Both the position numbers and the translations under genes were made by a program. From Auriscalpium vulgare (lineage: Eukaryota; Basidiomycota; Agaricomycetes; Russulales; Auriscalpiaceae): a stretch of DNA of 64,000 nt. The stretch lies in contig JAHBBC010000008.1 of assembly GCA_019915015.1 (NCBI GenBank), positions 1,488,001-1,552,000 of the forward strand, written 5' to 3'. The notes under the pieces are model-generated. The model was not told the origin of the DNA. It saw only the letters and a program-made list of their open reading frames with translations, and ran no database searches. Below, piece by piece: positions 6,034 to 39,165 of the stretch; position 1 is the stretch's first letter, and every line of letters begins with the position of its first letter.

Positions 6034-9000
6034 CTACCACATATCATCCATCGCGTCCTGCACATCACGACCAGCCGTCGCGAGATCAGTACTGTCAGGC
6101 TCACCAGTATGCAAGTCGTCGCCTTGGGACAAATCATCGGATATGTCAGAAGAGTCGACGTCGGAGGCATCTTCATCTGCGTCATTGTTGATGACGGAGC
6201 TGCTGCTGTCCACAGCGCGCGCTGGGTCGGAGGCTGCAGCTGTGGCTGCGGCGGCTGCGGCGGCTGCGACACCTGCGACACCTGTGCCATGTTGATTGGC
6301 GGTTGTGGACGGCGCGAGAGGCCACGGATCAGGGAGGGAGTACTGTGCGAGGATGGGTTTCCAGATGGAGATGAATGAGCGGCCGAGCTCGTCAAATTGA
6401 GCCGCCTGGCGATGAGCGTATGCGGTGAGCCCGGACGACACGTCAGGCCGGACCTCGGGTCGACTGCTGATGCGATCCCGCCACTGCTGCGCACGCGCTT
6501 CCATGAAGCGCACCGCCCGACGCATCTCCTCCTGAAGGTGCACGATTTCTTCGTCCCAGCGGTCAACGCGCGATTTTGCATTGACCCAGTCAACGCGGAC
6601 ACCTTATGATGAGGAAACATGAGGGGATATACCAGGTATAAGACAGCCAACACGTACTGTCCGTGATCTCAGCCTCTGACGCGTCTTCATCCATGCCGAC
6701 AATGTCGCGCGCGTCGGCCCGCAACGCACGCCATATCCAGCTCTGCTCGAAATGTCCCTTGCCGAGCTTGTTCGACTCCTGGCGTGGTGAGCGGATGTCG
6801 GCATCGCGCAGCTCCTTGAACTTGTGAGTCCAGGTGCCGTTCGGGTCCAGCTGGGTCAGTGCCGTGCGAGCGCCGCGATAGCGCTGAACATAACGCGTAA
6901 CCTTCTCCATCAGTCGTGTGATGTAGTTGCGTGAGCGTGTGTTGGCCTTCTGACCAGGACCGGCGATATGGATGCGCTTGAAGTGTACGTGGGTGTGCCG
7001 AATCCGTAGGTAGCGACGGACCTCAACTTCGAGTTAGCCCGACTGCGAGAAGACGTACGGACTGCTAGACTCACCTGATACAACGCCTCCTCTGCTTGCC
7101 CCAATCGAAGCCTCAGCTCCTTCTGAACCAGACCGGGCACGCAGCCGGTCGCGCGGAGCTCCGCAGGAAGTTGAGATGGTAGGTACAGGGTCTCCAGCTC
7201 GGGGCGATCAACGGGCGCACCGTTGTCGTTAGTCGTCCCGGCCTCGGACGGTTCAGAAGAGGGAGACGCAGCAGACAGCAGCGCAGCGGCGCACGGGATG
7301 TAGAGTTGTTGTACATGGCGCCAGGTGGTGATGCGGTGTCGAAGGGTGGTTTGCTTCTCCTTGAGTGCTACCTTCTCGACGCTGTTGTGTCGATCCTTCG
7401 GTGTCTTCTGTTTGCTCGAGCCTTCTGTTGGAATGCGCATGGCCGCACGGAGGCTCTGGGCTTTCTCCCTCACGAGGCGTCTAGCACAATCTGTCAGCCA
7501 TGAGTCGCAACCAAAACATGGCGACGCACTGTTGCTCCTCGAGTTCGAACCCAACTGTTAAGAACATACTCGCCGTAGTCTCGTGCGGTGCGAGCTGTCC
7601 CTCAGCCGCCTCTTTCGCCTCTTCCTCCGCAAGCTCCAAGCGAACGTCGACCAGTGATGTAGCTAAGGGGACAAAGACGCACCCATCAGCACAGCATAAA
7701 CACATCAAGGTACGAACACGTACATACGACGGGCTCCTCGTAGGGATTCGGCGCCCTTCTATCCCCATCATACGCGCGCATCATCTCGGCCCACTCTTGC
7801 TGTGTCTCGATAGGTATGTTCTCGGAAGCTTCTGCGAAGGCTGGCCGCTGTTGCTCGAGAGCTTCAAAAGCGACCTTCAGGCTCTTCTTCACCAGTCGAG
7901 CTGTATACTACGCGTGAGAAGCTACGTCAGAACAAAATGAGAGGACGCACGAGTCGAGATTGTCTTCCGCCAATTGATGGCGCCGAGACTGTCATCAATG
8001 CTCTCATGGCGCGAGGCACCCGTCATCTCCCGTGTGCTCAGCGCAACCCCATTTAGATCTGACCACCCGCCCTCGATTCCCTCGCCATGAGTTCGTCCCA
8101 CGCCGAATATGTTGTTGAGTGAGTACCCAGTCTGGCATTTGGGACCGTGCGCAATGAGGTGGAATTTGGGCACGGCCCACGTCAGACGGAGCGCGGCGGT
8201 GTCGATGTGAAAGTGCTCTGGGTACCTGGCCTGACGCGTGTCGAAGTTCTTGGAAAAAGAACACGCTATGTCATAGGAGATGTACAGCGTTCGGATCTCC
8301 GGCGCTGATAGCGCCAGGGCCGAGAGAAGCATATAGTCCATGCTTGCGTATCTGTCCGAGTGTTTCAGCACGCGTCAACACTGCAACGGACACGCTGCTC
8401 ACCTCTCACCGTAGTGCAAATCCCCCACGCCATGACGCAGATAAAAACAATGCCGGGAGCAGACGACCGCGCCAACACCGTTGACACTGAAGCGGCGCTG
8501 CGCGGGTAGGTTCGCATGGTCGATAGCAGAATGATTGGAGTCACAATATTTGATCTGCAGAATTCCATCAGACAATACTGATGACCGGCGATATTTTTAC
8601 TTACCTCCGGCTCGTTCTTGTACCTCTCACAGTGCTCGTTGTACGGGCCTTGCTCGACAAAATACCCCCAGCCCGGTGCGAGCTCAGTGTCGACGAGCTT
8701 CCGGTTCTTGAGCTTGAGCTTAAAGTTGGCATCGACAGCAAGAAACATGGCATGTTTCCATCTGCACGCAAACAATTCAATGTACGCTCGGAAATAGAAA
8801 TTCAGGGCGCACCTCTCGTCTTCAGGGACGTCTTCCCACCCATCGGGCATGTTCATGCCCGGCTGCGGACAGAGCGGACACTGGACTACCAACTCGCCGG
8901 GTTTGGTCGCCTCGATTCCCGCAGGATCGTGCCCACGACCGGCGCGCTTGAGAGCGCGAATGTGACGAAAGAACCGCACGGATCGAATGAACTCCCTGTA

Positions 9001-9280
9001 CCGATACTGTGAAAGGTAATGGTGAGTAAGGCAAGAGAGAGTCAAGCGAGACACGAACCTTTGGAGGCCGTGTTCCAATGCCGTCCGTGAGCCGGACAAG
9101 GCTGCACCAATAGTCATATGCATTGAGTTTGCTCTGCACCGTCATAGCATGGAAAGCCTTGAGCGTACGCAGCGTCACCGCAGTCTGCGGGCGCTCCGTT
9201 GTTGCTGGCCACAAGCTTGCGCGTAGGAGTTGGACGGTATGGTGATGTGAGCCGAGGACGCCGCACGCGCAGAAGTCAAC
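6034..9280 (-). pseudogene. KDZ (Kyakuja-Dileera-Zisupton) transposase, N-terminally truncated
   Basis: DDE-type transposase of the fungal KDZ superfamily, read on the minus strand through several short introns down to a stop at 6034. Family blocks appear in order: VDFCAC, then the block around RAGRGHDPAGIEA, a zinc-binding CPLCPQPG motif, then VDANFKLK, SYDIACSF, VPKFHLIAHGPKCQ and HGEGIEGGW. The presumed catalytic acids are the Asp codon at 8731-8733, the Asp codon at 8270-8272 and a Glu at 8072-8083. The coiled-coil region and acidic Ser/Asp-rich tail are also present. The catalytic part is undamaged, but upstream of VDFCAC the frame ends within about 3 bp of the terminal repeat of the neighbouring element. 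The cysteine-rich N-terminus usual in this family is missing and I could not find it beyond the far end of that element at 25.07 kb. It is best read as a KDZ gene cut by the insertion, followed by loss of the other half. Confidence 0.88.
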
Positions 9281-9282
9281 TT

Positions 9283-9307
9283 ATCTGGAAACCTACTCTA
9301 TACTAAT
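9283..9307 (+). repeat. Left terminal inverted repeat, 25 bp
   Basis: Begins ATCTGGAAACCTACTC and is the exact reverse complement of 25043-25067. It abuts the last in-frame codon of the KDZ transposase on its left. Confidence 0.9.
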
Positions 9308-9631
9308 ATCGTCTAAATTACCTCTTATAGCTGCTAATTATGATTAGCATTATATTAGGGTACCCCTTCGTTATTGTGCACTTATTTGTATCTTATTTGC
9401 ACACAATGCACCATATCCCACAGACTCTGCAGACAGCAATAGCATATAATTAGGCTCTAATTTGGCGCACAGAGTATATAATAAGTACAGAGCAGAAGAC
9501 AAGCATGGTAGTATTAGGGACAGGGACAGGCCATGTTGCAGAAAATATGAAGGAATAAGCAATGATCGCGCGCAAATAAGCCTGCACTTACAACACCGCA
9601 TCCGAAACCGCGACCACAGCGTGGCCCACAG

Positions 9632-12600
9632 TCAGCTCGAACCACTGGCAGCAAAATTCGCAGCAAAATGCTTGGCGTTCACGATATCGTCCTCGTCATC
9701 GCTGGGTGCGTCGCCGTCGCCGTCGTCGAACTCGTTGGGGTCGCGGCCCGCGCCAGATCTACATGCAAGGAACATCAGCACATGATCAAGGCTATACTCC
9801 CACAAAGCTAGTGCTCACGATGCGTCTTGGTACAACTTGGCTAGCATTGCCCAGAATGCTTGGGCATTTGTACCCTTCAGGCGCGCAAGGCGCTTCAGAT
9901 GGTCCTGGTACACGAGCTTGAATTTGTCCGAGTCGAAAGGGATCTTGGTCGCAGCGCCGGGGCCCAGCGCGTGAGATTGAAGGCCCGCGTCGATCTACAT
10001 TGTGTCGCGGTTAGTTTGATAGATCTAGCACGACAGGAACGTACCGTTGTTGCCACAAACGCCAGCATCACTGGCGGTATGACGGGCTCCTTGCGCCCAG
10101 GCGACACGTTGATGTACAATGCCTTCGGGAAGCGGAAGGCCGCGCGGGCTCCGAAGAACTTCTCCTCGAGGAGGTCCACAATGGCAGGGTGGTGGAACGG
10201 CAGGCCAGTGTTGAATTTCAGAGTCTAGGCAGCCGCGCCCGCCGCCGCCAGAGGGAAGCGTCACTCCAGTCAGACAAGGCGGCCACACAAATTGGGGAGG
10301 CAAGACCCACTCACCGCGATGTCGCCTGGGAAGACGTACAGACGGCCATTGAGCCCGCCCTGAAGCACGCGTGCCATATTCTTCGCGTACTTTCCCTCGG
10401 GTATCTCCTTGAGTTTGTACGCGGACTTGACGATGTTGTCGGCCCCAACTTTGATCTTCAACCGATGGTTCGCCATCCGCGCCTCGGGCTAAAAAGATGC
10501 GTCCTCCTCAGCGCACCCCAGCAGCAGCAATGTCGATGACTCACCATGATGGCCATGCCCTCCCTGTACGCCGGGTCCTCTTGCAGCCTTGCCACGATGT
10601 CCATCTTCTTCAAGTCGGTCGCGGCGACAGTTAGCGCCTCCGCAATGTACGCTTCCCTAGCGCCCTCCACAGGGTAAGCATTTTTGAAGAACATGAACTT
10701 CGACACCTCATGCTTCATGGCGCGCTGGATGACCTGCGCCACATCTCGTGTCTGGTCGCCCATGGTCATACGACTCCTTCCACCCTTCTCAGGGAAGACC
10801 AGGTCTGTTGACGCCGGCCAGCCGTTGCGCTCACTAGCCGGTGCAGCGATAGCAGTCTTCACGGCTTGACTTGCAGGGCCGCAGGAGTTGCTGCGTGCGA
10901 CGGAGCCGGCGACGTCGGGGCCGTGGTTACTGTCCTGCCCGTCTGCACTGTCGTGCAATACGAGCTGTAGCATGTCGTCGTCGATGCCGTTCTGAAGTTT
11001 GTTAGTACGCATACTAATCAAAACTTATCTCCTTAACTTGAGTAGATGGCGTGCCTGCGGCTCTTCTGCTGCCATTTGCTGCGGCAGTTGGTGTCTGCGC
11101 TTGTCGCGTTAGTGGCGCAGCGCAACCGATGTCGGGAGGTACATACGCGGCCGTATCTGCCCCACCCGGATGCCTCACCGTCGTCCGACGAATCTTCGAC
11201 GACGACCACACCGGACATGCTCGGGAGCAGGCCAGCGGTCTGCGATGAGCAACTCGTCGTCAGCCGCGCAGACGTCAAGAATATGGCGGCGACGTACCTT
11301 GGCAACGTTCAAACGTACCAGCCAAACAGATCAGCTAACGCCAGTGGGAGATCGGGCGTGCCAACTTACCTGTGTCTCGCTCTGATGGCCTCGAGGGTCG
11401 CTCGACAGCGCCTTCTTCTGCGCTGAAGGCCGCGACATGTTGGGCCTGCGCGGGACGACGACCATCTGCGAGGAAAACAAGTGAGTCCGACCGACAGGAC
11501 ATGCCTGTGGCCCGCGGGGTGCGCCTACATACCTCCACCTGTGTCGCATGGCCGTGGGTGTTGTTTGCTGGTGCCTTCTTCTGGACGGGCGGGCGCGGTT
11601 GAGCGGCCGCGATGGCAGCCTTCCCCTTACCTTTTAACGCTGACGGGATGCGCGGCGGGGAGCCCTCTGGCGAGGCAATGACTCGGGATGAGCGCGAGGA
11701 GGAGTGGCGAGGTCGGGAGGATGACTTTGCGACGTCTTCAAAGTCGGAGAGCTCTGCCAGGGAGTCGTCGAGCAAGCGTCGCTCGTCCTCTGTGACAGGC
11801 GCAGGTACAGCGTCTGTTGAGGCCCATTGGGGCGTCTGGATCCCACGGAGAAGGCGCTCAGCGCTTGAAAGCTTGAGGTCCAAATGAGGTGAACCAACTC
11901 ACCGCCCGGTTGAACTGACGCTCGACGTTAGACTTCCTACCTCCCTCTTCGCCGTCTACCTCCGCCGACCACTCTTCATCCTTCTCAGGCGCCTCTCCGT
12001 CGGACTCCGGAAGATCCAGGGCCTCGCCAAAGAGCTCTTCATCGTCCAGCGCCAGTTGTGTGCCGCGATTGGATGTGCTCAGGCTCGCGTTCGAAGCCAT
12101 CCAGGAGTTGTCGGCCGCCCTCGGGAGATCTTCAACGGGCGTGACCCGGGAAAGCACCATGCGCTATGATAAGGTGAGGTTGTTCTGACTTCATCCCGAG
12201 CAATCACTCACACGTGTCGCGCGTGTCTTCATCCGTCGTGTCTTCGTCCAGCGCATCGTTCAGGGCAGACTCGTTGGCGGCCTGCTCGCGCACGGTTGGT
12301 CCTTGCTTTCCAGACTGTGCTCGCGGGGCTGTGATGGCGCTGAGGGTGAATGGTTCGCTAATGCACGCCTTCACTCACCTGCGTTTGACTTTGCTTTCTT
12401 AGTAGCGCTTGATTTAGAAGCTCTCGGCTCGGCAGTTGACGCCGCCCGCTTGCGAGCCCCAGGGCCGTCGGACGCTTCCTCCTCGCTCTCACCGTTGGCG
12501 GGGCGACTGGATCTGTCCAGCGCTGTGGAAGAGTTGTCAGACGCCGCATACGTCGAGTAAAGGTGAGCTGCTGCGTGCCAGTCGACGATTTTTTCTTCGC

Positions 12601-12831
12601 TGCTGATTTTCTTGGCTCTGTGGGTGTTGATTAACGGCCAGCGCTCTGCACTACGAGACATAGCCGCTCACGACGTATGGGAGGGGTGTTCACATCCCCA
12701 TCAACGTTGACATCCCCGCCGGCGGCCTGCTTCCCGCGTTGACGTGGCGCTATCTTGCGCTGCGTACTAGGGGGCTGCTGCCCATCGCTATCTTTGCGGG
12801 CGCCCGATGTTTTCTTGCTACGAGTGCGCAT
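9632..12831 (-). CDS. DUF6532-domain protein
   Basis: Multi-exon minus-strand gene. The start at 12831 is chosen because the basic segment MRTRSKKTSGARK begins there and a TATAAAA lies about 90 bp upstream. The N-terminal half is low-complexity, acidic and Ser/Lys-rich, suggesting a disordered nuclear protein. The C-terminal half resembles the Agaricomycete DUF6532 domain, including PFHHPAIVDLLEEKFF and an IPPVMLAFVATT helix. Checked C-terminal exons are 10545-10991, 10315-10488, 10045-10224, 9819-9994 and 9632-9758; their phases are consistent and the last ends DDEDDIVNAKHF plus a short tail. N-terminal exon borders are not all resolved. The gene is divergent from the Plavaka transposase and lies inside the same element, which suggests co-mobilisation. 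DUF6532 has no known biochemical function. Confidence 0.75.
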
Positions 12832-13020
12832 CGACGAGCGGCCACCGGGCAGACAAAATGAGGGACAGTGTGGTGAGAGGACAAGTCGCACGGTCTGCCC
12901 GCTGCTGACTTGGAAGCAATTTTATAGGACCTGCCCGGGGCGCGCCACATTATAGCTCCGCCTTGGTGATTTGGTCCCTGCCTGTATCACTCCCTCCCGT
13001 TCCCCTTGAATTCACGCATC
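12832..13020. promoter_or_regulatory. Divergent promoter between DUF6532 gene and Plavaka transposase
   Basis: Only 189 bp separate the two start codons. On the minus strand CTATAAAATTG occurs near 12920, about 90 bp upstream of the DUF6532 start. No equally clear TATA faces the transposase. Both genes probably share this bidirectional control region. Confidence 0.6.
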
Positions 13021-16000
13021 ATGTCTACCAATCGCGAGCCCTGCGGTGGCTGCGGGAAAACTTTCCTACCGTCCGGACTCACCAAGCATCTTCGCTGGAC
13101 GACGGCCCTGCGCTGCGCGGCCTTTCGCGAGGAACAGCGCCAACACCCCACCGACGAAGCCCCCACAACCTCACACGATCGGCGTCGACAGCTTACCGTC
13201 GCCGCAGCGGAGTTGCATGCGCCCGGCCCACTCCCTGCCTCCAGTTCTTCCCCAGCAGCGGTCCATCCCGCCGGAGCGCCACTTCCCTCCGCCGGCAGTG
13301 AGGTCACCGTGCGCGCCCAATCACCGCTGGGCTCTGACTACGAAGAATTCGAGGCACGCGAAGAGGGATTCGATGGGGTGGATCCTCGTGAGCGTCGTCC
13401 CTTTGAACCTCTGTGGCCAAGCACTGACGCCTCTCTGCCACCAGTCGACATCTGGCGAGACGACCTGGCCCCGGACGATCTCGATTGGGCTGGAGAGGAC
13501 GATATCGCAGCGCAGGGAGACGATGCACCCTACGACGACGACCTAGACGAGGGGCAGGAAGAAGAGGACGAGGAGCTAGCGGGCCAGCTCGACGTCGACT
13601 ATGAGCCCATGGACGAGGACCGCCCCCACCCAGTAGATCCCCAACCCGCAGACGAACTCAACGGGCATCCGGCCTTCCCGGCCATGGACGAGGAGGAGGC
13701 GGCGCGCGTCGCAGAGCAGCAGCGGCGGCATGAAGACGAGCAGGGCCTTAACAAGCGGGCGAAGATAGTCCGCTTTGGGGGCCAAGCAGGGGAGGCCGTT
13801 GCGCAGGCGGCGCCGCTGGCGACCTACGACGCTTACCGCGACGCGCTTGGTCCCGGCGGGCCTGCAAACGTGTGGGCTCCGTTCCAAAATAAGTTGGAGT
13901 GGGAGATTGCACGATGGGCGAAGCTGCGCGGGCCCTCGTCGACGGCCTTCACTGAGCTGCTACAGATTGATGAGGTGCGTCATGGCGCTGCTCTCATACG
14001 GTTCATGGCTCATGCGCAGCGCTTTCCAAGGTTCGCCAAAAACTTGGCCTGTCGTTCAACACGTCCAAAGCGCTGAACGCCATCATTGACTCCTCCATGC
14101 CGAAATTCCCCGAGTTCAACTGCGAGGAAATCACCGTTGACGGTGAAACATACGAGCTGTATTCCCGCGACATTGTTGCATGCATACGATCGCTGTACGG
14201 CAACCCGGAGTATCTTCCTTCCATGGCCTTTACCCCGGAGGCGCATTATGTCGACGACGATGAAGAAGACGAAGGTGCACCCGACCGAGCAGAGCATGAT
14301 GGCCCCCGCCTGTACGGCCAGATGAACACGGGCAAGTGGTGGTGGCATATACAGGTGTGTCGCAGCGCTCGCTTCCTGGCATATCGGCTGATATCTGGCT
14401 TGCAGACCTTGCTCGAAAGCAGAACCCCGGGCGCTACCGTTGTGCCCCTGATCTTTTCCTCTGACAAGACTCTTGTCACCGACTTTCGCAACAAATCCGC
14501 TTACCCCCTCTATCTGACCATTGGCAACATTGCGAAGGAAGACCGGCGCAAACCATCCAAGCAGGCGCAGATTCTAATCGGCTACCTTCCTACTGCCCGC
14601 CTCTCCCATATCACCACTGCAGAGACTCGCCGGCGCGCCGCAGCAAATCTATTCCATGCGTGCGTTCACAGAATCGTCTCGCCGACACGCACGCATGCAC
14701 TTCACGGTATGAACATGGCAAGCGGCGACGGCGTTGTCCGTCGCTGCCACCCCATCTTCGCCGTGTTCATCGGAGACTACCCCGAGCAAGCTCTCGTCGC
14801 ATGCGTCAAATCTGGCGAGTGTCCCAAGTGTTTTGTCCATCCCGATTCCCTAGGCGATTACACACCTTCCTTGCCGTCTCCGCGGAGCATTTCAGCTGCT
14901 CGGGAGGCCCTCTCTGCCATCGATCGCGGGCCGGAGGCGTACATCGAGGCATGCCAGAACGTTGGGCTCAAGCCAGTCCTGCACCCCTTCTGGGAGGACC
15001 TGCCCTACTCCAACGTGTTCGTCGCAATCACTCCTGACATCCTCCATCAATTGTATCAGGGCATGGTCAAGCATCTCGTCGGTTGGCTCACAGTTGCCTT
15101 TGGCTCGGCCGAAATCGATGCGCGATGCGCCCGCCTCCCGCCCAATCACAACACACGCGTTTTCAAGAACGGCATCTCGATACTCTCCCGCGTCTCTGGA
15201 CAGGAACACAAAGACATCTGCCGTGTCCTGCTCGGCCTTATCGTCGACCTGCCACTCCCCGACGGGACGTCTCCCACACACGTCGTGCGCACGGTCCGCG
15301 CGCTCCTGGACTTCCTCTACTTGGCACAATATCCCTCGCATAGCGACGCCACTCTCAAGTACCTCAGCAAGGCTCTCAAACGCTTCCATGATAGCAAGTT
15401 CATATTTGAGCTCCTCGGCATTCGAGAAGGGTTCAATTTTCCCAAGCTGCACGCCCTTGCTCACTATGTTACTTCTATCAAGCTCATCGGAACAACAGAC
15501 AATAGCAACACAGAGGCAACCGAGCGGCTCCATATCGACTACGCAAAGAACGCGTACCGGGCTTCAAACCACAAGGACGTGTACCCTCAAATGACGAAAT
15601 GGCTCGTCCGCCGCGAACAGGTGCTTCGACATGCAAAATTCATCAAGTGGCGAGTCGCAAATGCAGGCCACGCCGCCGCCATTCCAGCCGCCGTCGTTCC
15701 CCATCCACGCATCCATATTGCGCGCAATCCGAGTGCCAAGGCCGTCTCCTTTGTGCAAATGGCGCATCGCCACGGAGCGGCCGACTTTGAGTATGCCTTG
15801 GCTCGATACATCCTTCGCGAGCGCAACCCCAACCATACGGACGCCCAGATTGCGAATGTCGCCAACGGGCTCCATCTGCCCTTCCGCACCGTTGCGACTT
15901 ACAACGTCATGAAGTTTTGGCTAGCAGACCCCCAGGATATCGACGGCGCCCCGGACACTCGCGACGCCGCCCACGCTCGGCCGTCTTATCTCGGCCCACG

Positions 16001-16477
16001 AGGGGCCGTGCCTGGCCGCTTCGACACTGTATTGGTCAACACGGGAGCGGGCGATGGCGACGGAGTCCAAGGTGTGCTGCAACAGGTTAGATATCGACTG
16101 CTGCTAAACTTCACGCAGGGTATCGCGTCGCGCAGCTACGCGCCATCTTCAGCCTGCCTGTGAGGGCTCGAGAGGCCGTCTTCCCTCCGCAGTACGAGGG
16201 CCCGAAATACCTGGCCTTTGTCGAGTGGTTTTCGCCATTCACGGGCGCTGCAGAGCCTGACCACCTCATGTACCGAGTGAAGCGGTCATACCGGGCGGAT
16301 GGTGTGAGGCAGTCGGCCGTGGTGGACATCGGGGCGATACGGCGGAGCGTGCACCTTCTTCCACGATTTGGTGCGGTCGTGCCGCGTCACTGGAGGTCCG
16401 ACAACGTCTTGGACGTCTGTGACTCGTTCCACGTGTCTTCTTTCGTAGACAGACATACATACATCACCATATACTAG
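13021..16477 (+). CDS. Plavaka transposase
   Basis: Complete gene with four exons: 13021-13974, 14031-14354, 14406-16071 and 16119-16477 (checked, 3303 nt, 1100 aa). The N-terminus has a zinc-finger-like CGGCGKTFLPSGLTKH segment, followed by a long acidic linker. The RNase H-fold core carries LIFSSDKTLVTDF (Asp at 14462-14464), GDYPEQ (Asp at 14775-14777) and EATERLHIDYAKN (Glu at 15522-15524) as likely catalytic acids; this assignment is by analogy. The C-terminal block ends with SDNVLDVCDSFHVSSFVDRH, as in family members. Length is typical and there are no frame breaks, so it may still be functional. It is the presumed mobilising enzyme of the 9283-25067 element. Plavaka elements are basidiomycete-specific DNA transposons related to the CMC group. 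Confidence 0.93.
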
Positions 16478-16710
16478 TCCTATAGTCCATTTGATATGCA
16501 GGCGTCGTGAACGTTCATCTCAAGGCAGACAGGTAGCACACAATGCGTCAAGAAATCATTCATTCGAAGCGTCAACGGTATGGACGGTGATGGCGGGTGA
16601 AAATTTCTACGGCGAGATACTCAGGTTGGTGGCCCGCGCACCGGCTGAAGGCGAGTCAGTGCACGCAAAAAAAGCAGGCCAAAGGACACGGACAGCGAGC
16701 CCACTCCACG

Positions 16711-17052
16711 CTACTCGCTGCCGTAGACTGTAGCGACGCCGTTGATGAGGTCGACGGCCTCAGCGAGGTCAACGCGTGAGCGATCGTTGGCCTTGTCCCC
16801 TACTTTGAGCTTCAGGTTGACGGTGCGCACAACGGGGAGACCGGATGGCCGCGCGTGTGGCAGGTTCAGCGCCGGTGGGATGGAGTACGATGTGCACGAC
16901 TTCTTGCCGTTGGGAGTGACGCGAACGTCGATGACCTGGGCGAGCAACCATCAGAGGGAGTGCGGTAGGTATAGTCAATGGATACGCACTATGGTCCCTT
17001 GGGCTTCAAGGTCAATCTCGAGCATGACGAGGGAGAGAGTGTTGGTCGGCAT
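16711..17052 (-). CDS. Small strand-turn-strand protein 1 (95 aa)
   Basis: Two exons, 17052-16990 and 16935-16711 (checked, phase 0, 95 aa), separated by a 54-nt intron with GTGCGT donor. The protein contains LEIDLEAQGTIVIDV, which aligns without gaps to segments of three other genes in this element (18479-18994, 19207-20175, 20473-21591). The intron falls two residues after the conserved Gly, exactly as in the 18479-18994 gene. The rest is VTPNGKKSC followed by a second strand-rich region. No known domain recognised; likely a small beta-rich protein. Confidence 0.65.
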
Positions 17053-17237
17053 GGTTGACGGTAGGCACATAAGAATGGGTCGTAATGTTCGCTGCCGGCG
17101 GGGTGTCACAGGCCGTCACACCCAGCTCCCTTGGCCTTCAAGGTACTTACGCTGTCGGGGTCTGGTCGGGCTGCATGCTGAGCAAGGCAAGTTGTCGGGC
17201 TCACTCCAATCATTTTGTATGCTAACTAGCTCTACAG

Positions 17238-17318
17238 GATACGTTACAACAAGTGGGCGTCCTCCTGTCCGACACGACGGACGCCGTTGTCAGGCTGCCA
17301 GAGTCGGGGGTCGGCACA
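17238..17318 (+). other. Possible exon of a fifth family member
   Basis: After a clear acceptor (branch-like GCTAAC, then TCTACAG) a 27-codon open segment contains VGVLLSDTTDAVVRL and ends at donor GTGAGT. It begins DTLQ, as does exon 2 of the gene at 20473-21591 (DTLQDVDVVV). I could not find an in-phase first exon or a convincing continuation, so it may be a decayed copy. Confidence 0.35.
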
Positions 17319-17781
17319 GTGAGTACACCCCTCTGTCCTTCTCTGAGGACTTAATCTGCATGACTGATCGCAACCCCGCCCTTCGCCATGCGTGGCGTGG
17401 GGCCGAGTCATTGCCTGCGGGCGCCGAAGATACCGCGAAACCCCGCCCCGCGATCTCAGCGCAAGCCGCCGCCATTCATCCGGTTACCTGTGGATACACC
17501 GCGCAGTTGTCGACCGGACCCGCTCCACCATTCCTGAGACACTGCACGAGGTCGGCGGCGCACACGGCGTACATCCCCCACCACTCTTAGCGATGCCGCG
17601 GCCGACGTGCATCGATGGACGAACAGTCCTCACCGATCGACGGCCCCCCATGATCATCTCGACTGCCCCGTGTTGGCCGGGGTTGTGCTTGAATATATGA
17701 GCCGGCGCGGGCAAGTCGTACGCGCAATCTACTAAGTATCCTATCCATCGCCCGTCTTCCTCGCCCACGCCCTACCCACCC

Positions 17782-18273
17782 ATGCGCATTGACACCCCCC
17801 AGCCGGGCTGGATGCGCGAAGCTCGCAAGAAGGCCACCGAGCTGAAGAAGCGCGAGGAGCGCTTCAAAGAATGGTGCGCCCTTGCCGAGTGCCCACGGAT
17901 GATCCAGCTGACAAGGCAGTGCAGGAGGATTGGGAAGCCCGTCTCGGGCTACGTCTGGATCAAGGGAGGTCTTGCCTGGGACCCGGACCAGGGGGTGTGG
18001 CGACACAGACAGGCAGCCGGGAGGGCGAGCGCGTTTGGGCCAAGCAGGCCGCCCCCGCGCGATCCCCGAGAGCGCGCGATCGCGGAGGTGGACACGCGCT
18101 CGCAGCCGCTCATGGAGGCGGTTGCGGAGGCCCCAGTGCAGGGGAGCTGGGGTGGGTGGTCCTGGGGGGGCTGGGGTGCGGCGGAGAGCGTGAGTGGTTG
18201 GACCGGCGGCTGGGAAGGTTGGACCGGCGGCTGGGGCGAGGAGAGCGTGAGTTCCCAGTCGGGGGGCTCGTGA
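17782..18273 (+). CDS. Gly/Trp-repeat protein (163 aa)
   Basis: Intronless ORF opening MRIDTPQPGWMREARKK, then a charged helical region and a segment with paired Cys (CALAECPRMIQLTRQC). The tail holds eight tryptophans in about 35 residues, nearly all next to Gly: GSWGGWSWGGWG, then GWTGGWEGWTGGWG. Part of the tail arose by duplication at DNA level, because GGTTGGACCGGCGGCTGGG is repeated. GW/WG-rich disordered tails are the known Argonaute-binding (AGO-hook) feature in eukaryotes, but here that is only inference. It lies between small cargo genes of the composite transposon. Alternatively it is a structural or low-complexity protein. Confidence 0.6.
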   Translation: MRIDTPQPGWMREARKKATELKKREERFKEWCALAECPRMIQLTRQCRRIGKPVSGYVWIKGGLAWDPDQGVWRHRQAAGRASAFGPSRPPPRDPRERAIAEVDTRSQPLMEAVAEAPVQGSWGGWSWGGWGAAESVSGWTGGWEGWTGGWGEESVSSQSGGS

Positions 18274-18478
18274 GCGCATCAGCACGACAATATAGTTGAG
18301 GCATAAACATGATATTGAGAACGAAACACAGTCACTAATGTAAGCTAGTCAATGTAAGCTAGTAATGTGGGGTTGGTACGTCCGCGCAACACGCACAAAA
18401 CGACCCTCGCTGCTGTCTGAAAGGAGGCCATGAGCGACGGTCAAGCAGCGCAGGGAAAGCACGCACCACAGGCGAGCC

Positions 18479-18994
18479 TTAGTGCTGCTTGTCTGCGGAC
18501 GAAGACTTCACGTCGTCGCGGAGAGGCGTTGCGGGCGCACGGGTCCCAAACTCGCTCATGGGGGGCAGATGCACTGCAACCGGGTTGGAGGGCACGCGTC
18601 GGTGCGAGCCTCGCGAGGACGCGGCGCGGCGGTGTCCCTGCTTGCGGCGCACCGGCGGAGGGGAGAGCGGGGTAAACAGCGGGGCGTCGTCGCCGGAGAG
18701 ATCGGCCGCAGCGTGCTGCTGCGTGGCGATAGGTGAGGGTGGAGGAGCTGGAGGCATGCCCGTCCCAAACGTGGCAGAAGCGCCGGCACCTGGCATTGGC
18801 GGGGCGTTGGTGGGGAAGCTGGTGAAGACGAAGGGCGAACCGGTCGCGCGGCCTGCAGCCCACGCAGGGAGCGCAACATCGAGAGTCTGAAAAAGCTGTC
18901 AGCAGGGTGTGATCAAGGCCAGTGTTGGGGGACGGACATAGCGCCCTGGGGCGGCGAGGGTTACGTTGATGTTGAGGTTCCAAACAGGCGACAT
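18479..18994 (-). CDS. Small strand-turn-strand protein 2 (154 aa)
   Basis: Exons 18994-18938 and 18886-18479 (checked, phase 0, 154 aa). The N-terminus contains LNINVTLAAPGRYTLDV, matching the family signature with Gly at the same place and the intron two residues after it, as in the 16711-17052 gene. The rest is Pro/Ser/Ala-rich with a basic stretch VRRKQGHRRAASSRGSHRR, suggesting a disordered nuclear protein. The donor is GTCCGT, slightly off consensus. Confidence 0.62.
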
Positions 18995-19206
18995 GATGGA
19001 GGGCCGAGACTGGAGAGAGCGCTGGGAAGAGAAGAGGTTCGCTGGCGAGAGAGTTCACCGACTCCATCAGTGGCTGTGCAGGGTACACTTACGCGGGCAA
19101 AGTGGCACTCACGCGGGCAAAGAGGCAGCGCGTGTGGCTGTGCACGCATGGGCGCTGCCGCGTTACACAATCTCCGGACACTGTCGACTCTGCCGACTGC
19201 CAAGCT

Positions 19207-20175
19207 ATGTCCTCAAGTCAGAATACTGTGCATGTATCGCTGCCCAGACCTGGCAAGGTCGAAATTCAGTATCTCCCCGAGATCGACCCTCTCACGGGGC
19301 GGCCGAGTCCTCTGGTGCGTCGCCGGATAAGCTTGCACCGCGTCCTTGCTGACTGCACCTCTTCTTGCCAGTTCCTCGAGGTCGATGGATCTCAGCGCCA
19401 GAACATAGAACCGCAAGATGGGCAACATGTAGCAGCGAGTATCTCCAGGAGAGACGAGAGAGTCAAGTCCGAGCCACGGTGCGTGCCCCACTCTGTCAAT
19501 CATGGACGCATCTGCCATTACTGAGCTCCTACGGACAGCTCTCCATATCAGGCGCGCTCGTCGCCCCGAATCGTCAATGACGCTGCCGAGGATGTGCCCG
19601 GCGATTCCCCCGCAATCGCACGTCGGGAGAGCAGCCCACTTGCGCCGCCAGAAGCGGGCTCGCCACCTGGCGAGGCCGCATCAGTTGGCGACAGTGGCGC
19701 GTCCGAGACCCAGCTAGCAGGCACGCAATTCACGTTCGACTCGGGCTCCAGCCAGTCGTACACGGAGCCCGACTCGGACGCCATCAATCCGCTCATTTTC
19801 GTGTCGTCGTCGCTGGCCCCGTCGTCGCCGGCACACGTCGCAGACGGCGAGGCGTCGCAAGCCCCGGAGGATTCCATAGCGAGTGCAGGCTTGCAATTGA
19901 GGTGCGTAGCAATCAACGACCAGTCAGCGCACGGGCAGATTTGTAACGAACGCCGCAGCGCCCAGGACATACTCACTACGACGCCCTCGCGCCTGCGGAC
20001 CCCCTCGGGAGTGCGGACGCCTGCAAGGTACCGCGCTATTGACAATGGCTGGATAGAGCCACCTGTCACGCCATGCAAGCGACGCCGCGAGGGCGACCGT
20101 GCGGACTCCGAGCCCCCGCGTGCTCGGGGCATCCGCGGTCCCACATTCACGGCAAAATTTAGCGGGCCTCAGTAG
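19207..20175 (+). CDS. Small strand-turn-strand protein 3 (about 283 aa)
   Basis: Exons 19207-19314, 19372-19478 and 19539-20175 (checked, 852 nt). VHVSLPRPGKVEIQYL near the start fits the family signature. It is followed by an acidic Ser/Glu-rich disordered region and a basic C-terminus containing PCKRRREGDR, a likely nuclear localisation signal. Another GTGCGT at 19902 could be an optional donor, so the 3' half is less certain. Confidence 0.6.
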
Positions 20176-20472
20176 TGCGTGCACTGCGCCGCGCCCGCCT
20201 GCCATGAGCGCATTCGGCGGTGCGCAGGCGATCGCTACGGGGCGCATGCATGGCTTACTTACCTCGAGGCGTATCGCACTCACACAAATGTAATTGACTT
20301 GGCACTCTCCTTCCCATGTGTGGCATGCCTCAAGAAATATCTGATTGCGCAAACAAGACACAAGCCTACGAACACGGTGCTACTCTGAATTGCTGCAACA
20401 CGCTCTCGGCAACCCCGCAGGCCCCGCCCGACTGTGGCCCAACCTAGATGGCCCGCAGCCGGCTTCCGCCTT

Positions 20473-21591
20473 TCACTCGGGGGTCGCCTGAAGGCGGGCG
20501 CGCTTGCGCACGCTCGCCGATTGACGTGGGGGCTGTGGGCTCGACCGCTTGGCGGCCGCGAGTCTGTTCGTCCGATTGGCGACCGCAAGGCTGGATCGTC
20601 TGGTGAGAACAGGAGAGTAGGGATATGTTTGCGAGGGCACTCACGGCGACGAGAGCTCGGAGGGACCAGCGCTGCGGCCGGCCAGGTCGGAAGCCCGCCG
20701 GCGCACCGAGTCGCGCAGAGGCTGGTCCGGAGCCGTCTGGTCATCGAGGTCGTAGGGGATGTCTGGCTGGCCGTCTGCAAGCTCGTCGACGTCTGCCTCA
20801 GAGGCGCTATCTCGCTGGGCGTCGTGCTGAACGCCGCTGCGGCCCTCCAGGAGAGCGAGAACGCGAGGGTTCGTCATCTTGAAGTACCCGGGAGCGCCGT
20901 CCATGGGCACGAGCTGAGCCTCGGACGGAGTGAGGACAAGCATGCCGTCGGCAGCATACTCGCCCCAGTCCGAAGGCGTGTTGGCTCGTATGCCATCATC
21001 GGACGGCGTGGTCGCGTGCGGGGAAGCCGTGTGGGTGCTCGGCGCGACGGGCTGCTCGGCGGTTTGGGGGCGCTCCTCGGGAGGAATGGTGTGGTTCATG
21101 GCAGCGGGTGCGCGCATGGCGCCGCGCACGGGGGCGTCCTGTCGATCTACGGGGGCGTCCTGTCGATCTACGTCCATCGGCGCGCCTGTGCCAGTAGGAC
21201 GGCGGGTGCCCGAGACGTCGCCTTGCCTGGGTGCGGGCGTCGCAGCTGGCTCACAGGGAGCTGGGGTGCCCCCGGTGCGGTTTTCATAGAGCGGAGGTTG
21301 GGCGGCCTGGGGGAGAGGTGCGGCGGCTCGGACAGCTTGCGCAGCCCCGCGATGCTTTGGCTGCGAGACAACTCGCATGTGCTAAACAGAGAGGGTGTCA
21401 AGATACGCCGCGCGGGGTCAAAAACTGAACACGCACCGTGGGGACGCCGCCGTCGTCGGGCTTGAAGCTCACCTCCAGCGTGCCGTGCCCTGATACCACA
21501 ACGTCCACATCTTGAAGAGTATCCTGGAGGCCCGGTAAGCGCACAGGTTGGAGTCCGGGGACCGACGACTGACCTTTGGCCAAAACGCCAT
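20473..21591 (-). CDS. Small strand-turn-strand protein 4 (322 aa)
   Basis: Four exons: 21591-21574 (an 18-nt first exon, MAFWPK), 21523-21437, 21381-20645 and 20599-20473 (checked, 969 nt, 322 aa). Exon 2 carries VDVVVSGHGTLEVSF, the family signature. The long exon 3 is Pro/Ala/Asp-rich with a tandem DVDRQDAPVDRQDAPV. The end is strongly basic (VRKRARLQATPE), a likely nuclear signal. It faces the TET/JBP gene with about 1.4 kb between. Function unknown. Confidence 0.62.
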
Positions 21592-21959
21592 TGAGTGGAG
21601 AGGGATGAAGGCGGAGGGCGAGGGTGCGTCGCGTGTTGTTGAAGTCGCGACCATCGGGGTTGGCAGTCCGTGGGAAACGACAACCAGAATCCCGCTCAAC
21701 CCACTGCGCCTCGACCGACCACCCTCCAACGCCCCCCACCCTTCGACAGCGCCCACGGATTGACCAGCCGAAGATAGGCGAGGAACACAGCGAGCGGTTG
21801 CACGTGAGTCGTTGGGTCTTGTTTCGTTTCTCTTCGGCATTCTCCCCGCCACGCGCGGGCTTTCGACGCGCATCGCGCTGGGCACGTTCTTTTTTGGGTT
21901 CATCTGTGGCCGTCTCCGCAGTACGCACGCCGTTTCGACGCGTCTCGCGCGATGCGCGC

Positions 21960-22235
21960 CGTCAAGACGCGCCTGCGCAGCCTTGTATGACGCTACACCA
22001 GGCGGCTCTGGGCCGCGCAGACGCGTCCTGACGACGCGCATGGCGCTGGACGCGTTTTTGTTCGTGCTCAGCTGTGGTCTTCTTCCCGCTGCCCGCGCCC
22101 TTTGGACGCGTCTCGCGGTACGCGCGCCGTCGAGCCGCGCCTGCGCAGCCTTGTATGACGCTACACCAGGCGGCTCTGGGCTGCGCAGACGCGTCCCGAC
22201 GACGTGTATGGCGCTGGACGCGTCTGGTCGCGGCG
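21960..22235. repeat. Direct repeat, 168-bp period
   Basis: GCCTGCGCAGCCTTGTATGA begins at 21971 and again at 22139, followed by near-identical sequence for about 90 bp. It lies between gene 4 and the TET/JBP gene and may include upstream control sequence of either. Confidence 0.75.
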
Positions 22236-22396
22236 CAGCGGCGCCCTCCTCTTTCTCAACATGAAACTAGCTTGCCTCTACTGACAAGAGTTGCCACAGG
22301 ACGTAGCTCGACGTGCAAGGCCCGCAGACTTCGCTGCGTTGGGCGCGGCCGTCATCCTGGGGAAAGGCCGTCTGTCAGGTCGATTGAGAGGCTACT

Positions 22397-22464
22397 GAGG
22401 TGCGCCACTCATCCGTTGTTTGTGTGCCAAGAGGTGCGCCACTCATCCGTTGTTTGTGTGCCAA
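22397..22464. repeat. Perfect 34-bp tandem duplication
   Basis: The unit starting GAGGTGCGCCACTCATCCG occurs at 22397 and 22431 back to back. It precedes likely 5' exons of the TET/JBP gene. Confidence 0.8.
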
Positions 22465-23011
22465 AGCTGATTGCTCTCCCAGCTCTCCCAGCGGCCCCAG
22501 CTTGCCCAGTGCAGGTGTGCATCAACAGCCAGAAAAAAACCAGGTGAGCACTCGTCCTCTGCCAGCCCGCTCACTCTCTGTGCCAGCGGCGCATGCTGAC
22601 GCAGCTGCATTTCATTCCTGCGCGGCAGTCGCGCTGTGCGCGCGAAGGGTGTCTGCAAGCAAAGGTCAAGGTGAGTTTGCCAGCTGTCTGCTCATTCATG
22701 GGCTGCGCAGATGCGGCGCACACGCTGACATGCCTTGTTCAGGTTGCGGGAGCCAAGCCGCCAAGGGAAGGCCTACAGCAAGCACCCAGGGTGAGGATCA
22801 CGCTGGCACCAGGTCTCTCGAGAGGCGTGCGGAGCGTGCGCGCGGCGGGTACGGGCTGCGCTGGCACACGTCCACAAACGCTGACACGTGTCGCCAAAAA
22901 GCTGCTCCTCGCAGGCAGGCATAGGAAGACGTGAGACAAAATGAGTGGAAGACGCACAGTACGCCGCCGTTCTACTGCGCCTTTACGTTCTGCTGAGCAT
23001 GCTGCCTCCAG

Positions 23012-24698
23012 ACGCGGTCAAAAAAAGGCTACGACGCCAATTACTCGTCCCTCGACTTCGACCTCGCGCGTGCCATCGAGGCGTCAGTTGCGCTCAGCCG
23101 CGCGAACGCGCGCTCAAGTTCGCCGGGCGGAGGTGATGCCGCATGCGAGAGAGAGGAGGCTAGGGGGTCGGGCGTGTCAAGTGAGCAGGCGGAAGCCGCC
23201 CGGAGCGCGGCGCGTGCGCGCGCCCGCGAGCGGCGGGAGTATGAAGACACGCAAGACGAGGAGAGGGCGATGCGGGTCGTGGAAGGCGAGGACCCCCAGA
23301 AGACCCGCAAGAAACGGCACCGGCGCGGCCGTCGCAAGGCAGCGAAGCCAAGGACCCAGTCAGGCCTGCCTCTGCCCACTCAGCACATGGCGGACACCCA
23401 CGCCTCCCATTCAATCACGCACTCGGAGGCCGTCCCGGCTGACACCATGGCCGACTTCAAGGTTTCCAGCGCAGGGTGGCGGGGAACGACGGCTTTAGAC
23501 GAGGTCGCGGCGACATACCTCGACAGGCTCGTACCGCCGGAGGAGCTGGTGGAGAAGCATGCGTTTCGGGTCCAGCACTGGGATGGAACGTGAGTGACGC
23601 CGGCACGTATTTGATTGGCCATGTCGGGGGCTGATTCTTTGCCTCAATGCACTCCCCAGTGGCAGCAAGTCGGTGGCCGACCGCGAGGACCGGATACTGG
23701 TACAATTGGCTGGTCGGCCGCCTACGGACAAAACCTGGCCCGACCAAGCAAAGAGCATGAGCGAAGTGCTAGATGAAGTCGCCCCGCTTGTTGATTTCGA
23801 GCCCGGCCCTCATCAGCGCGGGCGATACCCTTTTCTGCACGCAGGGTTTACTCATGGCGGAGGGTCGGAAGTGCGTGTTTGCCAGTGCTTGTCGCTGAAA
23901 ATTGAGCACTCACTTTTGATCCTCAGGAGCCTCATAATACAAAGGCCGGGAGCAGTGACCACCAGCTGGCAAGATCACGCATCCTGGCACACGAAGGCAT
24001 TCAGCGCGCGGCAGGGTTCCAGAGCAGTGAGTGTCTCCCTCTGCAGCTCCCACTCGACGACTCTCAACGCGACACACACACATTGCGGCATGTTAGGCGC
24101 AACGTCTCTCAACGCACCTCGTCTCTTTGGCCGCCTGGATGAAGTCGTGGAGGACGTGCGCGCGCGCAGGCCATTCCTCGAGAAGCCCTTCGCGCGGAGC
24201 GTGTTCCCCATGGCCACGTTCAACTTTGGACCACGGGCGTTGACCGTGCCCCACCGGGACTCAAAGAATGTGCCGTTCGGGTGGTGCGCAATAACTGCGC
24301 TCGGAAACTACGACTACAAAAAGGGAGGGCATCTGATTCTATGGGAGCTGAAGCTGATCGTAGAGTTCCCCCCCGGCTCCACTATACTCATTCCGTCGGC
24401 ACTTCTCACCCATAGCAACACCCCAATCCAGGACGGCGAAACGCGGCAGTCCTTCACACAGTGGTGCTCAGGCGATCTGGTTCGCTGGCAAGCGTACGGC
24501 CAGCGCACGGAGAAAGCACTTGAGCGCGAAGACCCGGAGCTCAAAAAACACCTAGACGAAGAGATCGATCTCCGGTGGAAGCGGTCGGTGGAGTTATTTT
24601 CAAAGAGGAGGGAGCTCCAGGACGACGTGAGGACGATGCGCGAGCGTTTGAGGGTGATGCACGGGCAGGGCGTTTCAAACCCTGCCATGGTTGATTGA
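23012..24698 (+). CDS. TET/JBP-family 2-oxoglutarate/Fe(II) dioxygenase (composite element copy)
   Basis: Predicted nuclear enzyme that oxidises 5-methylcytosine (or a related base) in DNA. Resolved exons are 23012-23589, 23660-23870, 23927-24026 and 24097-24698 (checked, at least 496 aa). Further short 5' exons probably lie at 22.45-22.93 kb but I could not join them, so the true start is unresolved. The N-terminal part is basic and charged. The double-stranded beta-helix holds FNFGPRALTVPHRDSKN (metal ligands His 24252 and Asp 24258), GWCAITALGNYDYKKGGHL, FPPGSTILIPSA, a second His at 24411 and the cofactor-binding Arg at 24444. All catalytic residues are present and no stops occur, so it looks functional. 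It sits at the right end of the composite transposon. Fungal TET/JBP genes are known to be expanded through transposons. Confidence 0.9.
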
Positions 24699-25042
24699 CT
24701 TAGCTGCCATGGTACCATAATTTATGTGCATACTGTAGATATTATGTTCTATGGTCCTCTGGACAAGTGCTACCCAATACTGTCAATACTGGCTTGGTTT
24801 GTGCCAGAGGGATGTGTTTTGTAGTACAGGTGACATGGATGTCACATGTGACCAGCACAGTGACAATTCACTCGGGAAATCAGTACCAAATCGCAACACA
24901 TATTGCTGGTCAGTGGGCAACCCAATCGACTTCATTTTTGGTGTGTGTGGTGCCCCCACTGAGGTGTACCTGCATGCCAAGTTTCACGCTGAAACTCCAA
25001 CATTTTCATTTTGGGGTGGGGTTAGACATCTGTAAGGCATTA
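24699..25042. other. AT-rich subterminal region of the composite element
   Basis: Non-coding. Contains palindromes such as TCACATGTGA near 24844 and a hairpin GTTTCACGCTGAAAC near 24981, which may be transposase-binding or structural sites. Confidence 0.45.
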
Positions 25043-25067
25043 ATTAGTATAGAGTAGGTTTCCAGAT
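25043..25067 (-). repeat. Right terminal inverted repeat, 25 bp
   Basis: Exact reverse complement of 9283-9307. Followed by CAGTG. Confidence 0.9.
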
Positions 25068-25748
25068 CAGTGACTGCCAGTCCAACGCAACTCGTCTCGC
25101 ATTTGGCTACCGCCGACCCCCAATAAGTATCCAATGATTACATTGCGTATGCAGGCGCAGCTGCGTCCCCCGGGGCGCGCAACTCAGGGACAGTCGTGGT
25201 TGGGCTTCGAAGCGCTCGATCGGCAGGCATCTCATGCACTGTGTAGAGCGAGAGGAGTGTCTCTGCTCCTGCCCAGTTTCCTCCGCCGGCGCGCATCGGT
25301 ACCGGATATCATCTTGATCTCGGACCGCGCGGGACGCTTTTCTCGTTCGGACGTCTCGCAACAGCTGCTTTCCTCTGGGATCACCGTCCCGATCCCTCGA
25401 CGTGCACTTTGCCTGGGTTGGAATCCGTTGGATGAGGTGAGCCAGGCGCCAGTGCTTCCTCCGTATCCCGTATCCACGCGACCAAACATGTGCAACGCCA
25501 AGCCCATGGACAAGTGGCGGCGCTGCAACTTGCAGAACACCGACAATTTGGCGCCTGCATGGTGCCCCTTTTACACGTCAATAAGGTATGAAACGTGGGC
25601 GAAAACATAGTGGGCTGGTGCGGCGCGTAACTTGCGTCCAAAGGAAGTCGCTTTCAGATGTGAAACACCTGCAAAACATAGTGGGCCGGGGCGGCCCGCA
25701 ATCTTCGTCCTTTAGGTGTGTATTTTAGCTCTACCCAGTTTGCATCCT
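25068..25748. other. Flank of composite element and upstream region of the first zinc-finger gene
   Basis: No gene recognised; in particular no KDZ N-terminus was found on the minus strand. An approximate duplication around AAAACATAGTGGGC occurs at about 25.60 and 25.67 kb. Confidence 0.5.
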
Positions 25749-26279: not shown

Positions 26280-26937
26280 TGATAGGTTCAGGCCGCGGGC
26301 AAGCGTGTAGCGAGACGTCGCGAGACGGGGAAGCAGCATGCGAGGCGCAGGGTCGCGGGAGCGGGGGTGATGGGAACGTGGTCCGGCGACCCAGGAGCAG
26401 CCGGGACTGGCGACGGAACGGATCACCGGAACGGGCTAGATCGGGAGGGCTTAGCGACGTAGGTAGAGCCACTACTTAGGGAGCTGCGCGAGACGTAGCA
26501 ACCCAATCAACCTGTGGGCGGCGCAAGCCACCCACACCCTTTACCTCACAGAAACTGTAGCCTGAGGCGCTACCAGACTTAGGAAGGAAGGACCCCACCG
26601 ATGTGGGAACAGGTAGGCAGGCGGACAGGCAAGAGGGGGGTGCGACGGCCCATAGGCGGACGCTTCGCACACGGGTGCGAAGCACTCGGAGGAGGATCCC
26701 GTAGAGGGCATCCCCAGGCAGGTGAGTGTTTAGTTTGGTGTTTAGGCGGTAGGAGGTGGCCCCGCACGACCGCGGGGAGGGCACGAAGCGCAACAGCGAC
26801 ACGAACACCTTCCCCCCTCAGCAAGACTAGTCACCCGGACTGGATCGCGACGTATAGGAGGCAGTGTTGGTGGTTGTTGTCCTGTGAGGCACTCGCCGCA
26901 CGCCCCGCTAGGGTCCGTCCCGGGTGATAGCGTATCA
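26280..26937 (+). repeat. 5' LTR (658 bp)
   Basis: Starts TGATAGGTTCAGG and ends GCGTATCA, with terminal inverted TGATA/TATCA. Same length as 39177-39834 and matching over the ORF-spanning stretches I compared. Confidence 0.95.
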
Positions 26938-26940
26938 TTT

Positions 26941-26957
26941 TGGAGCCCACCGCGAGG
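26941..26957 (+). other. Primer-binding site
   Basis: TGGAGCCCACCGCGAGG, three bases after the 5' LTR. The leading TGG pairs with the CCA end of a primer tRNA; which tRNA is not determined. Confidence 0.6.
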
Positions 26958-27027
26958 GGTATGGTGATGACGATCGTGTTCGAGCTTTAAAATCAGCCTC
27001 GTAGACGGCACCCGGTCGCTGATCAAC

Positions 27028-33826: not shown

Positions 33827-34298
33827 AAAGTACCGCCCAGCACTACGGCGACTGAGGACAGTCGATATTTCAGTTGGGGGGAGGATTAGACGGTGGTATT
33901 TAGGACTGAACAGCTGGAAGTACGGATGGAGACGAGTCAGGACGATAAGTCGAGGTCGCGAGCGCTAGCGAAGCTCGGACTGGGCAGGCACCGACTAAGG
34001 CTTCAAGGGTCTGGAACAAGGCTGAGGTCGCGCCGGAAACGCGATAGGACACGCTCACACTGTGACACAAGCAATGGACTCTATTCACAACATAGCAGGA
34101 TAGCGAATTCTATGTACACAGCAAAGAGGTAGCGACGGATAGCGAACAACTATGAACAGACCGATAACGAGCGGACAACACGACAGCGAGACGCCGAAAC
34201 CCCCACCTAGGACACGAGGAACGCCCCCCGCATCGAAGCACCAAGGCCCTCTGCTGTTGAAGCAGGGGCGACTCCTTTTGAAGAAGGCTCGCAAGCGG
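33827..34298. other. Post-pol non-coding segment with polypurine-like copy
   Basis: Contains at 33868-33883 the 16-mer TTTCAGTTGGGGGGAG, identical to the sequence at 39158-39173 that forms the polypurine tract before the 3' LTR. No gene seen. Confidence 0.7.
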
Positions 34299-39048: not shown

Positions 39049-39165
39049 CGCGGGACAGAAATCGGCAAAGGGATGCTACAAGCGACGTTATCGCGAAAGG
39101 TCGCGAGCCCTTATATGCCGCTTCCGCACGGTTCCTGGCAACTGGGGACAGTTGCAGTTTCAGTT

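Follow-up and report, generated by a model that had tools for sequence, protein, structure and literature searches.

TET enzymes carried by transposons are believed to reverse the methylation by which transposons are silenced, and we know of few direct tests of such anti-silencing activity. Plavaka and TET are said to have been first reported by Iyer et al. in 2014. In the part of its text available, Kojima 2025 (PMC12730594) describes TET-bearing Plavaka transposons from two members of the Agaricales, Agaricus bisporus and Gymnopus confluens, and the only TET-bearing transposons that it reports in the Russulales are of the Kyakuja type. Here, a stretch of 64,000 nucleotides from Auriscalpium vulgare (GenBank assembly GCA_019915015.1, contig JAHBBC010000008.1, positions 1,488,001 to 1,552,000; hereafter the window) was analysed, and the segment from 9282 to 25068 very probably represents a single Plavaka-family DNA transposon that carries its transposase together with seven further predicted genes, including one for a TET dioxygenase, which would act against silencing of its own element. 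The find probably places a TET-bearing Plavaka in the Russulales, and its TET shows neither the PE nor the AG hallmarks known from the literature.

Like the Plavaka elements in the available text of PMC12730594, the element in the window has a Plavaka transposase, a TET/JBP gene inside its ends and termini beginning with CATC, and its other copies have 2-bp target duplications (2 or 3 bp in the published elements). However, the termini read CATCTGG rather than the CATCA described there, and the PlavakaB termini 5'-CATCA..TGATG-3' are not matched, as the fifth base is T here. The TET is not of the PE type with HxE that the paper assigns to Plavaka; its motif is HxD, and the residues at H+5 and H+11 (counted from the first histidine of the motif) are N and C. 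DUF6532 and cargo do not appear in the main text of PMC12730594, whereas a DUF6532 gene is present here. Kyakuja elements with an AG-type TET, such as CcTET of Coprinopsis cinerea, are likewise DNA transposons carrying a TET dioxygenase; however, as described in the available text of the same paper, they have a transposase of another superfamily, 7-bp duplications and no terminal repeats, and the residues Gly(H+5) and Asp(H+11) belong to their TET and not to the one studied here. The IS3EU elements of the Pucciniales that carry TET and an alpha-kinase (same text) also hold a TET gene in a multi-gene transposon with conserved gene order, but differ in transposase, in having 6-bp duplications and in the partner gene. 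Searches of the open-licence literature found no report of DUF6532 in Plavaka elements and none on Basidiomycota DNA transposons with cargo genes and terminal inverted repeats; for Russulales, TET dioxygenase and transposon, only Kojima 2025 was found, and for DUF6532 itself the one hit was a genome study of Ganoderma.

Ends, copies and empty sites of the element

A preliminary description of the window had proposed that perfect 25-bp inverted repeats enclose a mobile block, and these repeats (9283–9307 and 25043–25067) are exact, forming the inner part of an inverted pair with 29-nt arms of 97% identity. The 51.6-Mb assembly (contigs labelled C1, C2 and so on, with the window on C8) was searched with the 25-mer allowing up to three mismatches, and 11 places were found, compared with none for a reversed-pattern control; the repeats are thus not widespread apart from Plavaka genes. 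Eight of the 11 form four pairs, in C8 (the window copy, 15,785 bp), C22 (15,877 bp), C51 (15,877 bp, with one mismatch in the right repeat) and C52 (15,781 bp). Of the remaining three, two are right ends that adjoin TET matches (C2:2107214 and C10:274709) and one is a left end with three mismatches at C10:206595. No transposase was found on the inner side of the right end in C2.

The four copies are near-identical and differ pairwise by 1–14 substitutions over ~15.78 kb (0.006–0.089%). They also differ by one 96-bp unit of a minisatellite and by a 4-bp indel, which falls in an intron predicted for the DUF6532 gene. Outside the repeats, the flanks of the four copies are unrelated to each other. 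One flank per copy was compared with the genome and the candidate empty sites were then examined. The C52 copy has an empty counterpart on C13 with flanks that are 99.8–100% identical, and the C51 copy has one on C42 (flanks 99.2–99.8%, in a repeated stretch), for which a second empty copy was also read. The counterpart of the C22 copy on C29 is perhaps paralogous, as its flanks are 93% and 80% identical. A 2-bp target duplication was found in each of these comparisons (TT for C52, TA for C51 and GT for C22), and the termini were CATCTGG..CCAGATG in C22 and C52, with ..CCAGAAG at the right in C51.

As the empty sites reveal one extra terminal base, the element ends are placed at 9282 and 25068. 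The repeats are therefore terminal, as had been proposed, with the true ends lying one base further out, and no empty site pointed to ends more than one base away. Four whole copies with unrelated flanks and three empty sites bear out the proposal that the block is one mobile unit. The label of composite transposon given to it is not appropriate, because no second full element flanks either end and one Plavaka match lies inside. Repeated words that might mark subterminal binding sites for the transposase were sought in the terminal 500 bp on both strands, and none of 8–12 bases was present in more than three copies.

Gene content of the window copy

The complete Plavaka transposase and at least seven other genes that had been predicted were recovered (Table 1), the latter comprising a DUF6532 gene, five small genes and the TET gene that precedes the right repeat. 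Gene models were built using GT-AG splicing for the transposase and six others, and the DUF6532 gene was recognised by profile score and reading frames. The Plavaka domain of the transposase (PF18759) scored 345.8 bits against a cut-off of 26.3, and a zinc-finger-like stretch at the N-terminus fell below the Pfam cut-off. When C(2)C and H(3–4)H motifs beside the DDE residues were sought, CPKC and HALAH were visible by eye in the transposase model. DUF6532 (PF20149) scored 91.2 bits against a cut-off of 24, and protein searches with it returned a single relative (P0001, from A. vulgare). The N-termini of small proteins A, C, D and E look alike by eye, and these were considered as a paralogous family; this was dropped after alignment against 500 shuffles, as none of the ten pairs of small proteins was significant, with the best at 35/500 (C–D) and 41/500 (A–E).

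Table 1. Features of the window copy (window coordinates) and of diverged elements found elsewhere in the genome (contig coordinates)
Feature	Location	Strand	Size	Remarks
Left terminal inverted repeat	9282..9307	+	26 bp	CATCTGG.. in C22, C51 and C52; outermost T here
DUF6532 gene, many introns	9632..12831	-		Core exons within 9800–11003; outer ends approximate, by eye
Plavaka transposase, 4 exons	13021..16477	+	1100 aa	PF18759
Small gene A	16711..17052	-	95 aa	No Pfam family; relative in C45
Small gene B	17782..18273	+	163 aa	Weakest model; only a sub-threshold Pfam match
Small gene C	18479..18994	-	154 aa	No Pfam family; relatives at C10, C45 and C48
Small gene D	19207..20175	+	283 aa	No Pfam family; relatives at C32, C38 and C2
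Small gene E	20473..21654	-	343 aa	No Pfam family; relative at C10
GC-rich minisatellite	21860..22240			Four copies differ by one 96-bp unit
TET/JBP-type 2-oxoglutarate (2OG)-Fe(II) dioxygenase gene, 5 exons	22941..24698	+	502 aa	Motif HRDSKN..GWC
Right terminal inverted repeat	25043..25068	-		Outermost G in C22, C51 and C52; C here
Diverged element	C17:870747-885240		14.5 kb	Duplication AT
Diverged element	C10:1371026-1385074		14.0 kb	Duplication TT
Diverged element	C38:156161-169560		13.4 kb	Duplication AG
Diverged element	C32:222463-235896		13.4 kb	Duplication TA

Recurrence of the gene arrangement

Genome-wide match lists included at least 80 Plavaka clusters, 99 TET loci and 22 DUF6532 loci. 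A Plavaka cluster was found within 15 kb of 17 of the 22 DUF6532 loci, compared with 4.2% of the genome in that range, and 16 of these 17 loci are located 3.3–6.3 kb upstream of Plavaka on the opposite strand (13 of 19 loci when the four near-identical copies are counted once). At seven of the 12 other divergent DUF6532-Plavaka loci (C4, C10:1.37 Mb, C17, C18, C32, C38 and C44:81 kb), a TET match follows downstream on the same strand. Plavaka lies no more than 15 kb from 32 of the 99 TET loci, and 16 of these 32 are found 6–10 kb downstream of it in the same orientation.

A left-end repeat was detected just past DUF6532 at 12 of the 15 other loci tested (three DUF6532 loci fell outside the test), of which 11 came from the first comparison and C32 was added later; C10:220 kb was left out, its best match being inside the gene. 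At two of the 12 (C1 and C11:121 kb), there is no Plavaka match within 15 kb. A right-end repeat was found just past TET at six of 11 loci tested, with the C32 repeat one match above the best of 30 shuffles.

Four diverged elements of 13.4–14.5 kb (sizes computed from coordinates; Table 1) were found to have both ends, matching 2-bp duplications in all four cases, DUF6532 at the left and TET at the right, and those in C32 and C38 look like close relatives. An arrangement of DUF6532, Plavaka, small genes and TET therefore recurs as an element design, alongside others. The multi-gene payload attributed to a large Plavaka element in the preliminary description is real, but it is not an odd or accidental load, because DUF6532 holds the same divergent position at 12 other Plavaka loci, seven of which also have TET downstream, and the four diverged elements share the placement of both genes.

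The TET protein

Searches with residues 200–502 of the TET protein found 411 relatives and, among the 120 listed, all were fungal wherever the organism was given. The closest match listed is 84% identical (P0002, from A. vulgare), and the best listed from another species are from Artomyces pyxidatus, which like A. vulgare belongs to the Auriscalpiaceae in the Russulales. A structure model of P0002 had a predicted local distance difference test score (pLDDT) of 91.6, and its nearest solved structures were CcTET, NgTET1 and TET2, with CcTET the closest and NgTET1 about level with it; modelling of this relative indicates that the window protein has the TET fold. A sequence search of solved structures using the TET alignment gave one row with an E value of 0.15, taken as chance.

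In 44 aligned relatives chosen from the 120 listed, H165, D167 and R229 are invariant and H218 is found in at least 90%. The HRD, H and R of the Fe(II) triad HxD..H and the 2OG-binding arginine are all present in the window protein, and the HxE of the PE type was not found in it, HRD being present instead. Counted along the sequence rather than by structural alignment, H+5 is N and H+11 is C in all 44 relatives as well, in place of the Gly and Asp of the AG type (Gly331 and Asp337 in CcTET), whereas two AG-like proteins examined from the same genome carry G and D at these positions. The H+5 position is Asn in human TET2 and Asp in NgTET1. By analogy with these residues, N at H+5 would suit a 5-methylcytosine enzyme of the ordinary kind. 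The function of the predicted TET would be demethylation.

Selection and mosaic structure

The ratio of non-synonymous to synonymous substitution between elements (omega) was calculated by the Nei-Gojobori method for all genes except B, which lacks a comparison partner. For the transposase it was 0.12–0.13, and 0.11 against C2 (171 codons), and for TET it was 0.22 against C10. The DUF6532 core and gene A both gave 0.24 against C45. Values for gene C were 0.32 (C10) and 0.51 (C45), for gene D 0.40 and 0.46 (C32 and C38) and 0.34 against C2 (43 codons), and for gene E 0.52 (C10). The 95% bounds on pN/pS were below 1 throughout, apart from the comparison of TET with C2, where there were too few changes. 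To judge from these ratios, DUF6532 and small genes A, C, D and E show purifying selection between elements.

In comparison with the relative at C10 (257–275 kb), identity is 69–78% where the transposase aligns, 83–87% in gene E and 97–100% in TET and the right end, and synonymous divergence (dS) is 1.6, 0.19 and 0.03 for the transposase, E and TET, respectively. This gradient suggests, from C10 as the single case, that the right half was recently exchanged between elements. The right end in C2 was also considered as a swapped TET module, and was set aside in favour of the simpler reading of a 5'-truncated remnant, because its similarity starts at window position 22883 and what lies upstream is a frame of 1009 aa that matches no Pfam family, together with a weak integrase match that falls short of the cut-off.

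The region C10:206594–274734 (68 kb) includes, in order, a left end, a DUF6532 core (220 kb), a remnant (263 kb) that resembles the N-terminal part of the DUF6532 gene, a transposase, C, E, TET and a right end, and may be a single element that large nested insertions have broken up.

Interpretation and alternatives

The protein families imply the transposase and TET steps of a possible mechanism. The transposase would bind the 26-bp terminal repeats and move the unit by cut and paste, and joining to the target would leave the 2-bp duplications. The predicted TET would oxidise 5-methylcytosine on the element, which would stay expressed and mobile. DUF6532, kept beside the left repeat across diverged elements, and small genes A, C, D and E are likely to be accessory factors that serve the element, and their conservation and position prompt the guess that they act in repeat binding, targeting or anti-silencing.

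Several observations weigh against this reading. The window copy lacks a target duplication and has T and C at its outermost positions, where C and G stand in the other copies. Its empty site was sought from the left flank, and the two flank relatives fetched (82% identical and less) did not reach the right flank, hence either the surroundings of the window copy are rearranged or the insertion was irregular. This left flank (8282–9281) is one member of a sequence family, of which about 15 other long matches were found at 67–82% identity, and both relatives read continue past the junction where the window stretch breaks off. No relative of gene B was found in the genome outside the four copies, and an AlphaFold2 model of DUF6532 (made from the C45 relative by reading through its introns, with exon fragments serving as the alignment) was unusable, with a pLDDT of 53.9. 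The window TET scored 13.7 bits with Pfam Tet_JBP, a family not defining for the superfamily, against a cut-off of 34.9. Five of the 12 other divergent pairs (two in C2, and C44:145 kb, C45 and C5:357 kb) have no same-strand TET within 15 kb downstream. Left ends were missing at three of the 15 loci tested, including C2:320 kb and C5:357 kb, and three of those accepted (C10:1.37 Mb, C2:2.11 Mb and C18) exceed the best of 20 shuffles by one or two matches. Right ends were not found past TET at five of 11 loci (C44, C4, C18, C35 and C5). Neither a left end nor DUF6532 was found in the 4.5 kb of C48 examined, and the part of the C10 relative (257–277 kb) that was fetched showed no DUF6532 core.

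The left end at C44:145–147 kb likewise has an altered outermost base, and the last terminal base may vary or be remade.

It is conceivable, but improbable, that a Plavaka enclosed host genes by chance and that these are now passive passengers. In keeping with this, A, C, D and E have no Pfam function and each is present in only some elements, and gene B is confined to the four copies. However, DUF6532 and TET hold their place and orientation in the diverged elements, and the purifying selection seen on A, C, D, E and DUF6532 would not be expected of passengers.

That two or more transposons abut, one a Plavaka and the other a separate TET or DUF6532 element, is very improbable. TET matches are numerous in this genome, and 67 of the 99 loci have no Plavaka match within 15 kb or lack one on their contig altogether, which could be taken to favour it, as could the E-like genes on C26, C42, C51 and C56 that sit near TET but have no full Plavaka gene, but the whole 15.8 kb occurs as one unit at four sites, and among the 25 of 46 inverted pairs listed no other of such quality spans a comparable distance inside. 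The 99.9% identity of the copies would also fit a 15.8-kb chromosomal block duplicated by recombination with incidental inverted repeats, but this is scarcely credible, as homology ends at the repeats in all four copies, the flanks are unrelated, and C22, C51 and C52 have empty sites with 2-bp duplications.

A single transposon with its own accessory genes can be tentatively extended to the lineage, whose Plavaka elements might be a conserved multi-gene anti-silencing vehicle, with DUF6532 at one end, a third, unsorted mushroom TET (HxDxxN..GWC) at the other and changing, selected small helpers between them, and with the TET/right-end half exchanged by recombination. If so, this exchange would explain the spread of TET among transposons. 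As the ends are fixed, empty sites are available and the near-identical copies are very recent, the element can be followed, and protection of the element by its own TET and the roles of DUF6532 and the small proteins become direct questions for the bench.

Other features

E-like matches were found ~3.8 kb from TET matches on C26, C42, C51 and twice on C56 (C26:4206–8527, C42:1882–6210, C51:23762–28103, C56:7992–12295 and C56:60196–64499), and three more (C2, C4 and C26:501 kb) had no TET nearby. The units in C26 and C42 are near contig ends and another E-like match is at the end of C2; the E-like/TET unit is possibly a subtelomeric repeat.

In the window, two identical 300-bp direct repeats are located 12.9 kb apart (26280–39476), beginning 1.2 kb to the right of the transposon. 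The frames between them match aspartyl protease, RNase H and an integrase zinc-binding domain, and the region is a long retroelement of the long terminal repeat (LTR) type, probably young. Its 3' part includes five antisense frames of 328–481 aa, and the three scanned had no Pfam family. A second, diverged TET-like frame, 36% identical and with one TGA, was found 32 kb downstream of the transposon (window 56896–57888; C8:1544896–1545888).

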